From NCBI RefSeq assembly GCF_014191505.1, contig NZ_JACHWS010000006.1, forward strand, positions 1 through 64,000: DNA of 64,000 nt. Reading direction: 5' to 3'. The notes beneath the pieces were generated by a model. That model did no database searches, had not been told where the DNA came from, and saw nothing but the letters and a program-made list of their open reading frames with translations. This stretch comes from Hoyosella altamirensis (GTDB taxonomy: Bacteria > Actinomycetota > Actinomycetes > Mycobacteriales > Mycobacteriaceae). The first letter of the stretch is position 1. Each line of letters starts with the position of its first letter. Both the position numbers and the translations under genes were made by a program. Shown one piece after another: positions 42,235 through 44,386 of the stretch.

Positions 42235-43461
42235 CTATGCACCCCTTTTCTGTTGAGGCGGTAGTTCACTCCTTTGTAGTTTCATCCAGACTTCGTGCTG
42301 CTCCTCAGTGTGGTTGCAGCGGACGGCGAGCTCGGGGCCGGTGTAGTTCTGTGGTGGTGTGCGCCAGCCGTGTTCGTCGCAGTGGGGGCAGTGTGCGCGC
42401 TGGCGGCGCTGCTCAGCTGCTTCGGTTTCGCGGGCGATGTCGGCGGCAGCGGGGCGGTCGTTGAGGTCGAGGGTTGTGAGGATTCTGCCGATGAGTCCGA
42501 TGGGGCGGTGGGGTTTGTGGGGAAGATAGTGGCCGAGTGATTGCCAGTCGCGTAGCGCCTGGTTGAGATCCCGGCCGCTCCAGCCGTGGCGGGCAGGTTT
42601 GGTGAGGACACGGGCCCACCCATGGGGGGTGTGTCTGTGCGCCCAGCGTGGTGTTGAGGGGTCGGAAAGCCAGGTTCTGGCGAGCCACAGCCCGTCCGGA
42701 TCGACAGGGCGGCCTGGCTCGGTAGGTGAGGGCGCCGTAGGCGCTCGTTTTTCCACAGGCTTGCCTGTAGTTATTTTTCTCTCAACGTAAGAGGTAATTT
42801 CAGAGTGACCCCTACGGGGGTGGGTGGACATTTTGTTGTGTGGCGCACTTTTTACGTGCGAGTTATCCACAGGGATAGTGGGTTTGGGGTGGTGGAGTGC
42901 CCACACCGAGGCCCAGCCGCGGGCGTGGTCGCCGCAGCGCCAGGAGGCCATCCGTTCGGTGCGTGTGCGCTGGCGGCCGCGGAGTATTTCGGTGGCAAGG
43001 CCGAGTTCGCGCAGGAGGTTGCGGGCGCGGGTGACAGTTTTTGTGGCGCACTGGAGTTTCGCGGCGATGGTGGTGTTGTCGACGCGGGAGTTGCGGCCGG
43101 TGGCGTGATCTGCGGCATCGGCCATGACGGTCGCGACGCGCAGGAGTGTTTTGAGGCTAACCCCCGCTGTGAGGTTGCGGCGGGCCTGGCTGTAGTGGCG
43201 CGTGTAGACACGCTCGAGGTCCGCTAGCCATGTATCGCGGCGGTACCAGCAGGGAACGCCCTGGTATGCATCGGGTTCGAGTTCCAGCGCGACAGGTCGA
43301 GTGGGGGCGAGCGCGGCCACTATTGCCGGTGCAGTGCGCGCGGTACCGCGCCTGCGCCGAGTGTGGGTACAGCCGCGGTATCGCGACACACACGGTGTTT
43401 TGGCTGAAAACGTTGAAGCGATATGAGGGTATGCGCTACCCTCAGAACTGCCTGTAAGCAA
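42235..43461 (-). CDS. Plasmid replication initiator with helix-turn-helix
   Basis: Up to 408 residues from a TTG at 43461; the true start may be further downstream. A winged-HTH core (SRVDNTTIAAKLQCATKTVT then RARNLLRELGLATEIL) and MASWRCGDHARGW match actinobacterial plasmid 'helix-turn-helix' Rep proteins. A zinc-finger-like HCPHCDEHG is near the C-terminus. It would bind the origin and load the replication machinery. Its 5' leader region overlaps a double-hairpin RNA candidate on the opposite strand. Confidence 0.75.
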   Translation of the reverse strand: MLTGSSEGSAYPHIASTFSAKTPCVSRYRGCTHTRRRRGTARTAPAIVAALAPTRPVALELEPDAYQGVPCWYRRDTWLADLERVYTRHYSQARRNLTAGVSLKTLLRVATVMADAADHATGRNSRVDNTTIAAKLQCATKTVTRARNLLRELGLATEILRGRQRTRTERMASWRCGDHARGWASVWALHHPKPTIPVDNSHVKSAPHNKMSTHPRRGHSEITSYVERKITTGKPVEKRAPTAPSPTEPGRPVDPDGLWLARTWLSDPSTPRWAHRHTPHGWARVLTKPARHGWSGRDLNQALRDWQSLGHYLPHKPHRPIGLIGRILTTLDLNDRPAAADIARETEAAEQRRQRAHCPHCDEHGWRTPPQNYTGPELAVRCNHTEEQHEVWMKLQRSELPPQQKRGA

Positions 43462-43565
43462 TTCTGTCCTCTCAGTTGGACCAGACCGAAACGAAGCGCC
43501 AACTTCGTTTCACCCTGACGAAAGTTTCAAAACCCCCCTTGCCCGGGGGTTTTCGTCATTTCTGG
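43425..43565 (+). ncRNA. Double-hairpin RNA candidate, copy A, antisense to the rep leader
   Basis: Hairpin 1 is GAGGGTA-tgcgc-TACCCTC (43425-43443). Hairpin 2 is AGAACTGC-ctgtaa-GCAATTCT (43444-43465). A strong terminator follows at 43529-43553. The unit overlaps the first codons of the rep frame on the opposite strand, the position of copy-control antisense RNAs. A related unit lies at 43927. The 5' end is not known. The hairpins may instead act in the rep mRNA itself. Confidence 0.5.
43529..43553 (+). terminator. Rho-independent terminator after RNA copy A
   Basis: AAAACCCCC pairs with GGGGGTTTT (43529-43537 and 43545-43553), followed by CGTCATTT on the plus strand. It would stop plus-strand transcripts before reaching 43570, and could also act on the minus strand. 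Confidence 0.75.
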
Positions 43566-43926
43566 GGTGTGTGTCTGATCAGTGACGAATGCAGTTGTCC
43601 GATCGATGTGCTGGGGTACCTCCTTCCCGCCGGAAGCTGGGTGCAGCTCTTACGGCCACACTCGGTTGGGGATCGATGCCGAGGGCCGCCAAGATTTAGG
43701 TGGATGCTCGTCGAATTCGGTTGAGTCAGTTGACGTACCGGCCTAACGCGACCAAACGGCTGAGCGATGCGACGCGGCAACTGGGAGGCTTGGTGAACGT
43801 GCAATGACCCACTAAGCGCCCCTGGGAGGGGCAACAAGACTCTGAACGGCGAGGTCATGCGACAAGTTTCCACGTGATGTTTATGGAACTTTGTGCGTGT
43901 TTCGCTCGTGTTCAGTTGAATGGTGT

Positions 43927-44060
43927 GAGGGTGCACGGTACCCTCAAAACTGCCGACAAGCAGTTTTGCTCCTCTCAAAGGGGCAGCACAGGATCAGAGA
44001 AAGCCTGGCTCTCTGGTTGGCTCTTAGAAGACCCCGGTGGCCGCCGGGGTCTTCTTGTCT
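43927..44060 (+). ncRNA. Double-hairpin RNA candidate, copy B
   Basis: Hairpin 1 is GAGGGT-gcacggt-ACCCTC (43927-43945). Hairpin 2 is AAAACTGC-cgacaa-GCAGTTTT (43946-43967), directly adjacent as in copy A, with the same 6-nt loop size. Relative to copy A, a G-C pair has become A-T in hairpin 2, a compensatory change. CCTCTCA follows both. A terminator lies at 44026-44055. No rep-like gene overlaps this copy. Confidence 0.5.
44026..44055 (+). terminator. Rho-independent terminator after RNA copy B
   Basis: AGAAGACCCCGG (44026-44037) pairs perfectly with CCGGGGTCTTCT (44044-44055) around 6 nt, followed by TGTCTCT. It lies between copy B and the convergent RHH gene and may serve both. Confidence 0.75.
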
Positions 44061-44102: not shown

Positions 44103-44315
44103 TTAGGCGGTCTTCTGCAGTGGCAGTACCTCCTGGTAGTCCACAAGATGCGTCCGGCCGGTGTGCTCAGCAATCAGCACAGCAATCAGGTCGTTCGCGG
44201 TGATTCCTCGGTCCTGAGCCGCCTTTTGCAGGGCGGCTTTCAACTCGGGGTGCATGCGCGCGAGAAAGGCTTCTCTCGGCCCCTTGCTCGGGCGACCAGG
44301 TTTGCGTAATCCAGC
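44103..44315 (-). CDS. Small ribbon-helix-helix-like regulator
   Basis: 70 residues from an ATG at 44315. A basic start (AGLRKPGRPSKGPRE) is followed by LARMHPELKAALQKAAQDRG and ITANDLIAVLIAEHTG, an RHH or Arc-like pattern. The frame is open to an ATG at 44363, but a 12-bp inverted repeat there looks like the operator, favouring the shorter form. It is probably a plasmid copy or transfer regulator, or an antitoxin. No toxin partner is next to it. Confidence 0.65.
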   Translation of the reverse strand, partial: AGLRKPGRPSKGPREAFLARMHPELKAALQKAAQDRGITANDLIAVLIAEHTGRTHLVDYQEVLPLQKTA

Positions 44316-44336
44316 CATGGGCACAATCTTGCCGTT

Positions 44337-44386
44337 TTGGCTATCCGCTAACGGGGAGGACACGCCGGCGAGTTGCGGATAGCCAA
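44337..44386. promoter_or_regulatory. Inverted-repeat operator upstream of the RHH gene
   Basis: TTGGCTATCCGC (44337-44348) and GCGGATAGCCAA (44375-44386) are perfect 12-bp inverted copies with a 26-bp gap. Two dimer sites in the leader fit negative autoregulation by the RHH protein. Confidence 0.6.

Follow-up and report, generated by a model that had tools for sequence, protein, structure and literature searches.

The window, a 64,000-nucleotide stretch of Hoyosella altamirensis DNA (positions 1 to 64,000 of contig NZ_JACHWS010000006.1), carries two similar sequence units, hereafter copy A and copy B, on a contig of 98,284 bases. A Hoyosella subflava plasmid, pAS9A-2, covers 97% of the region at 92% identity, and the contig carrying both copies is very probably a plasmid itself. 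Copy A overlaps the start of rep, whose product has tblastn relatives in 259 plasmid records, chiefly from Mycobacterium and Rhodococcus. The likeness of rep to the pVT2/pLR7/pJAZ38 plasmids (NC_005016.1, match H49) supplies what we take to be the family name. Profile searches of Rep returned no rolling-circle initiator domain, only weak helix-turn-helix scores. Sequence comparison identifies the unit as the minus-strand beginning of a plasmid replication gene, where a Shine–Dalgarno (SD) sequence precedes a covarying stem that bears the start codon. The features of copy A are as follows.

42235–43461, minus strand: rep, pVT2-like replication protein of 408 aa (tblastn to plasmid records and family genomes)
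43461–43459, minus strand: rep start codon TTG, inside a hairpin; start position common to homologues
43467–43473, minus strand: SD sequence GAGAGGA of rep, 5 nt ahead of the TTG, read from the sequence
43443–43466, minus strand: H1, start-codon stem-loop of the rep mRNA leader; covariation in homologues, G·U on the minus and A·C on the plus strand
43425–43443, minus strand: H2, second leader hairpin, overlapping the antisense promoter
43413–43418, plus strand: antisense −35 TTGAAG, separated from the −10 by 18 nt; TTG at this spacing in homologues
43437–43442, plus strand: antisense −10 TACCCT; T1, A2 and T6 invariant in alignment A1
43447–43560, plus strand: predicted ctRNA A, deduced from the promoter and the hairpin at 43529–43553; start uncertain by about 3 nt
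43488–43511, plus strand: internal hairpin of ctRNA A, 9 bp, loop CGCCAA
43529–43553, plus strand: terminator-like hairpin of ctRNA A, with equivalents in homologues

Both units had been picked out in the sequence-only reading as two adjacent hairpins followed by CCTCTCA, and both are indeed present. In copy A, stem 1 pairs GAGGGT (43425–43430) with ACCCTC (43438–43443) and corresponds to H2, stem 2 pairs CAGAACTGC (43443–43451) with GCAATTCTG (43458–43466) around the loop CTGTAA, and CCTCTCA occupies 43468–43474. The counterparts in copy B are GAGGGT (43927–43932) with ACCCTC (43940–43945), CAAAACTGC (43945–43953) with GCAGTTTTG (43960–43968) around the loop CGACAA, and CCTCTCA at 43971–43977. 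This arrangement is well beyond chance: a composite pattern of the unit matches twice in the window against 0.00 expected, with none of 100 shuffles reaching two matches. The same pattern finds only copies A and B in the whole 4.76 Mb genome, one additional match in the species-level genome collection and no exact match among viral contigs. The compensatory change from G-C to A-T described for the second stem is confirmed at 43445/43464 in copy A versus 43947/43966 in copy B. The paired layout of that stem holds in both copies, but in copy A the pair 43448/43461 is a C·A mismatch on the plus strand and a G·U wobble on the minus strand. Likewise, stem 1 of a third plasmid (L003) reads GAAGGT/ACCCTC, giving A·C on the plus and G·U on the minus strand. 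The terminator placed 60–65 nt beyond CCTCTCA lies at that distance when measured to its centre, but its stem already starts approximately 50–55 nt after CCTCTCA.

Approximately 45 leaders of rep homologues have in common CCCCGAAGGGA, a short variable stem and TCTCAGGGTAGCGCxCACCCT, with the start codon in or near the loop of the variable stem, and homologues carry AAGGGA at the position equivalent to the SD sequence of rep. A covariance-model search for relatives, as suggested beforehand, was carried out with R1, a model of the leader unit searched without protein information. R1 matches 25 of 399 order-level genomes and 114 of 401 at the level of the host family, about a quarter; matches elsewhere in the phylum, outside Mycobacteriales, occurred at chance level and were set aside. 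An in-frame ATG, GTG or TTG lies upstream of the anchor in 140 of 141 matches, a count that takes in three copies of B only via a TTG 36 nt away, and in 120 of these 140 the start codon stands 18 nt before a conserved GGT codon. Across the 141 related units compared, the start codon (TTG, GTG or ATG) sits in or beside the loop of the covarying stem. The ORFs downstream belong mainly to a Rep cluster (97 members, joined by single linkage and including some primase-like ones) and to a cluster of 31 that we tentatively call AEP-primase-like, a name taken from a motif and from weak profile scores (LigD_Prim-Pol, E = 7.5e-4; AEP-TOTE, E = 0.0019 and 0.007), none of which reaches its curated cut-off. 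At four loci (L088, L089, L093 and L152), the unit opens an ORF of 36–48 aa, and the primase-like gene follows in another frame.

Pairing in the start-codon stem is retained across considerable sequence divergence, with 33 distinct stem sequences among 65 units and 320 Watson–Crick cells. Alignment A2 was fitted to the model, which biases it in the model's favour, and kinship of the sequences inflates its covariation figures. In A2, all four pairs of H1 show changes on both sides, and whole-structure covariation is 0.209 versus 0.141 in shuffled alignments (0 of 500 shuffles as high). Sliding the structure along A2 lowers the covariation and leaves fewer cells paired. For H2, both-side changes occur at one of five pairs only. 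Counted in the rep-strand sense across homologues, H1 and H2 together hold 27 G·U versus 11 A·C pairs, the SD hairpin H0 holds 13 versus 12, and a per-sequence wobble count gives 9 versus 8. Using the wobble pairs of the whole homologue set to assign a strand was dropped as indecisive, as they are balanced by the per-sequence count and mildly in favour of the rep strand by the pooled one. Nevertheless, copy A and L003 show G·U pairs and the homologues a mild bias in the same direction, and the mRNA therefore appears to account for the retention of the stems no less than any antisense RNA does. The pairing evidence thus belongs mainly to the minus-strand rep mRNA leader: the compensatory pair 43445/43464 coincides with the predicted 5′ end of the antisense RNA or precedes it.

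A different set of constraints concerns the plus strand. Within the first codons of the replication gene lies a putative antisense promoter with the consensus (T/C)TGnnn-N18-TAnnnT, the T, A and T of whose −10 element, read antisense, are among the invariant columns of the unconstrained alignment A1. Among 65 units, the −10 hexamers are TACCCT (37), TACCGT (16), TATCCT (4), TATCAT (3) and others including TAGCAT; the anchor of this tally was picked by the TAnnnT pattern, which makes TAnnnT invariant there by construction, yet the variety of hexamers is still informative. Of the 65 nonredundant units, 35 show an antisense TTG with a spacer of 18, where the background is 1.6% per position, and 61 retain the A at +28, the third position of a codon. 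Additionally, the changes in TCTCATGATAGC disrupt the second hairpin and give a different peptide, yet TAnnnT is retained. A terminator-like hairpin is centred at a median of 98 nt from the −10 (quartiles 92–104) in homologous units, scores above the 95% level of shuffled sequences in 85 of 127 and is followed by at least four T within 8 nt in 65 of 127, although such hairpins could act on either strand. A promoter scan with an E. coli-type consensus found no promoter at copy A, because TACCCT is a poor TATAAT. From the conserved −35 and −10 elements and the terminator-like hairpin at a fixed distance, we therefore predict an antisense RNA of about 105–110 nt, which would cover the rep start codon and SD sequence and whose 5′ hairpin is predicted to coincide with the upper part of H1. 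The segment 43483–43515, which includes the internal hairpin, is identical (33 of 33) in three Hoyosella plasmids. H2 probably represents the promoter region and lies outside the antisense RNA. Placing both hairpins in a plus-strand RNA fails at H2: the GAGGGT/ACCCTC hairpin contains the −10 TACCCT and lies upstream of the predicted transcript.

Copy A combines elements expected of a ctRNA locus, namely a predicted short structured RNA antisense to the rep leader over the SD sequence and start codon, a promoter motif of its own on the opposite strand, an intrinsic-terminator motif whose T-tract is weak in half of the units, and stem-loops kept by covariation. We consider it likely, with good confidence, that copy A is a plasmid copy-control module with an antisense RNA over the rep start and that copy B is the orphan leader of a second replicon. 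In the proposed mechanism, the rep mRNA would present its SD sequence and then the stem-loop bearing the start codon, and the plus-strand promoter TTGAAG-N18-TACCCT in the first rep codons would give rise to an antisense RNA ending at 43529–43553. Being complementary to the start codon, the SD sequence and the leader, this RNA would block rep translation by pairing, and copy number would be held down. The earlier suggestion that copy A lies antisense to the rep start, as copy-control RNAs do, is thus strengthened by the conserved antisense promoter and terminator-like hairpin found in the sequence comparison. That comparison establishes the layout, the stem covariation, the conservation of the antisense promoter, the position of the hairpin and the occurrence before two kinds of replication genes; we infer that the antisense RNA is made, inhibits translation and sets copy number. 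Its binding to the rep leader would stop translation by analogy with the ctRNA of pGA1 (PMC9592669) and RNAII of pMV158 (PMC4485353). More broadly, the unit can credibly be regarded as a widespread family of ctRNAs that overlie the site where translation of plasmid replication genes begins.

The same conservation might instead concern the mRNA leader hairpin itself, acting by start-codon occlusion or as an operator for Rep or the RHH protein, with the antisense RNA irrelevant. This is improbable in our judgement: the covariation and the mild G·U bias on the rep strand (27 versus 11) agree with it, as does the location of H2 and lower H1 outside the predicted antisense RNA, but TAnnnT is conserved even where H2 is broken, the TTG or CTG held at precisely 18 nt, part of which is a third codon position, has no role in the mRNA hairpin, and the terminator-like hairpin keeps a fixed distance. 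It is hardly plausible that what is conserved is the peptide at the N-terminus of the replication proteins (SQGSAHP), with the hairpins as a by-product, the alternative against which the stems were to be checked, for although an SxGSA-type peptide is indeed conserved, being widespread and opening both Rep and primase-like ORFs, the stems covary, varying in sequence yet staying paired, third codon positions do not vary where the promoter depends on them, the 36–48 aa leader ORFs are opened by the unit with the primase-like gene in another frame, and TCTCATGATAGC alters the peptide but keeps the −10.

Copy B, whose function had been left open, is best read as an orphan leader belonging to a second replicon type. 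Its features and neighbours are listed below.

43916–43921, plus strand: antisense −35 TTGAAT, 17-nt spacer
43939–43944, plus strand: antisense −10 TACCCT
43949–44058, plus strand: predicted ctRNA B, from the promoter and the hairpin at 44026–44055
43945–43968, minus strand: start-codon-type stem-loop, with CTG (43963–43961) at the start codon position
44026–44055, plus strand: terminator-like hairpin
43556–43978, minus strand: 140-aa ORF behind copy B, coding doubtful; no stop in three plasmids
44103–44318, minus strand: RHH-like gene, 71 aa, candidate CopG/CopB-type copy repressor
44337–44386, no strand assigned: perfect inverted repeat of 12 bp, TTGGCTATCCGC...GCGGATAGCCAA, preceding the RHH gene; a possible operator

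The best alignment of copy B is with the rep leader of a co-resident small plasmid (contig C11; L044), scoring 66 versus 49 for copy A (shuffled maxima 23 and 25) and extending over the whole length from the terminator to beyond the −35, and an RHH gene lies directly upstream in both places; copy B therefore has the appearance of a leader from a second replicon type. Homologues of the RHH gene are also found directly upstream of rep on pAS9A-1, where the identity is 57.7%, and on a Rhodococcus plasmid. Its profile scores, to HicB and RepA-regulator families, are weak and below cut-off. The inverted repeat is nearly unchanged in three plasmids, with one base differing just inside it, at 44348. 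Apart from one weak match, copy B is the sole unit type without ATG, GTG or TTG at the usual in-frame position, and the 140-aa ORF behind it shows a weak codon signal, 16 synonymous versus 21 nonsynonymous codon changes in three plasmids and no family match in a profile search. We propose that copy B derives from the leader of a pAS9A-1-like replicon and was kept with the upstream RHH gene after rep loss; its sense half would have lost the start codon (now CTG) and rep, the antisense half remaining intact and perfectly conserved.

In three plasmids, the 73 nt at 43912–43984, at copy B, are unchanged. The RHH gene is about equally conserved (257–258 of 261 identical), and recent exchange of the B–RHH block is therefore an alternative to selection. 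That copy B is a neutral relic within such a block has, in our estimate, slightly less than an even chance: the loss of its start codon and rep and the equal conservation of the neighbouring gene fit, whereas the absence of any change in 73 nt while the next 300 nt of intergenic sequence are 87% identical does not. A live trans-acting role, directed at its own leader, at rep of copy A via the shared anti-SD TCCTCTCA or at related incoming plasmids, with the RHH protein alongside, is possible but rather doubtful. Promoter, stem and loop are identical in three plasmids, and the predicted duplex energies, which include terminator stems, are −93 for ctRNA B with the sense strand of copy A versus a shuffled minimum of −80, and −127 versus −91 with the small-plasmid leader, the latter mainly reflecting homology; moreover, excess Cop repressor impairs the establishment of cognate plasmids (PMC5717011). 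Against this, the longest exact match between the copies is 8 nt, the loops differ (TTACAG, TTGTCG and TTCACG in the rep sense), the small plasmid and copy B coexist in two genomes, and the start codon of copy B is lost. We attach little probability to the more specific idea that the RHH gene and copy B form an orphan negative-regulator pair of a pAS9A-1-like replicon, a rep-less cassette that would limit or exclude related plasmids in the cell. A search of the host, conducted without a positive control, found no primase gene elsewhere for copy B to serve.

No Rfam 15 family reached its gathering score in the window or in 20 related loci. A permissive search returned sX13 at 43447–43563 (plus strand), roughly the extent of predicted ctRNA A, but with E = 0.087 and 21.5 bits versus a gathering score of 50 bits, and this match was taken as chance. 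Searches of the open-access literature returned no paper describing an antisense RNA for these replicons.

The R1/IncFII (CopB–CopA–Tap–RepA) and IncB/I (RepY–RepZ) plasmids follow the order repressor, antisense RNA, leader peptide and rep. This gene order is echoed by RHH gene, unit and rep here, and some relatives of the unit place their leader ORF of 36–48 aa before the primase-like gene. In copy A, however, rep itself starts in the hairpin, and neither a pseudoknot nor coupling is in evidence. A leader ORF coupled to rep, as in IncFII/IncI plasmids, is absent from the window, and the leader-ORF layout occurs only in the four loci named above. With the pVT2/pLR7/pJAZ38-type mycobacterial replicons, the shared feature is a related Rep, and the leader unit also occurs in genomes of the mycobacterial family. 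Corynebacterium pGA1 is likewise an actinobacterial plasmid with an antisense RNA overlapping the rep start, a ctRNA said to control the amount of Rep and copy number (described through PMC9592669). Unlike the Hoyosella replicon, pGA1 replicates by rolling circle; in Hoyosella the RNA is predicted, its promoter lies within the coding sequence of rep, and the hairpin loop contains or adjoins the start codon. In pMV158, the CopG repressor gene lies upstream and the antisense RNAII inhibits translation of the replication gene (PMC4485353, PMC5717011). The two systems resemble each other in a hairpin with a 6-nt loop and in an antisense RNA, predicted in Hoyosella, at the replication gene, and the small RHH-like gene upstream is a candidate counterpart of the repressor gene; pMV158, however, is a rolling-circle plasmid with one short RNA hairpin, whereas the predicted Hoyosella RNA is longer with several hairpins.

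If the RNA is made, the unit would represent a widespread, apparently undescribed antisense-RNA family for replication genes of Mycobacteriales plasmids, including Mycobacterium and Rhodococcus relatives, and a single translation-control module common to replication proteins of different families. It would offer a handle for shuttle-vector copy number and would help to assign these plasmids to compatibility groups. More unusual is the survival of the antisense half of copy B, unchanged, beside the RHH gene. The start-codon loop, which comprises the start codon and a variable second codon, was considered as the sole incompatibility tag but found no support, co-resident units sharing loops in 4 of 88 pairs versus 4.0% between genomes, as unrelated units do; other compatibility determinants, for instance the internal hairpin, may still operate.

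Several further arrangements were observed. In three Rhodococcus-like plasmids, a second unit approximately 1 kb after rep opens an AEP-primase-like gene (L087 3057–3119, L088 4444–4506 and L089 4779–4841, all on the minus strand), two of the three using a 36-aa leader ORF that ends in ATGCTGA. Genome G127 (contig C2; L137 3252–3936, minus strand) carries tandem units 620 nt apart, in the order RHH gene, unit with an ORF ending in an RHH-like domain (recognised by eye) and unit opening a primase-like gene; in its relative G949 (L138), the middle ORF is just 46 aa. Between copies B and A, the intergenic block 43719–43785 is almost fully conserved in three Hoyosella plasmids and could be part of an origin. 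Within rep, the stretch 42888–43029 is approximately 80% identical at the DNA level to mycobacterial plasmids versus about 44% identity for the whole protein, and a DnaA-box-like TTATCCACA lies near it, at about 42864.
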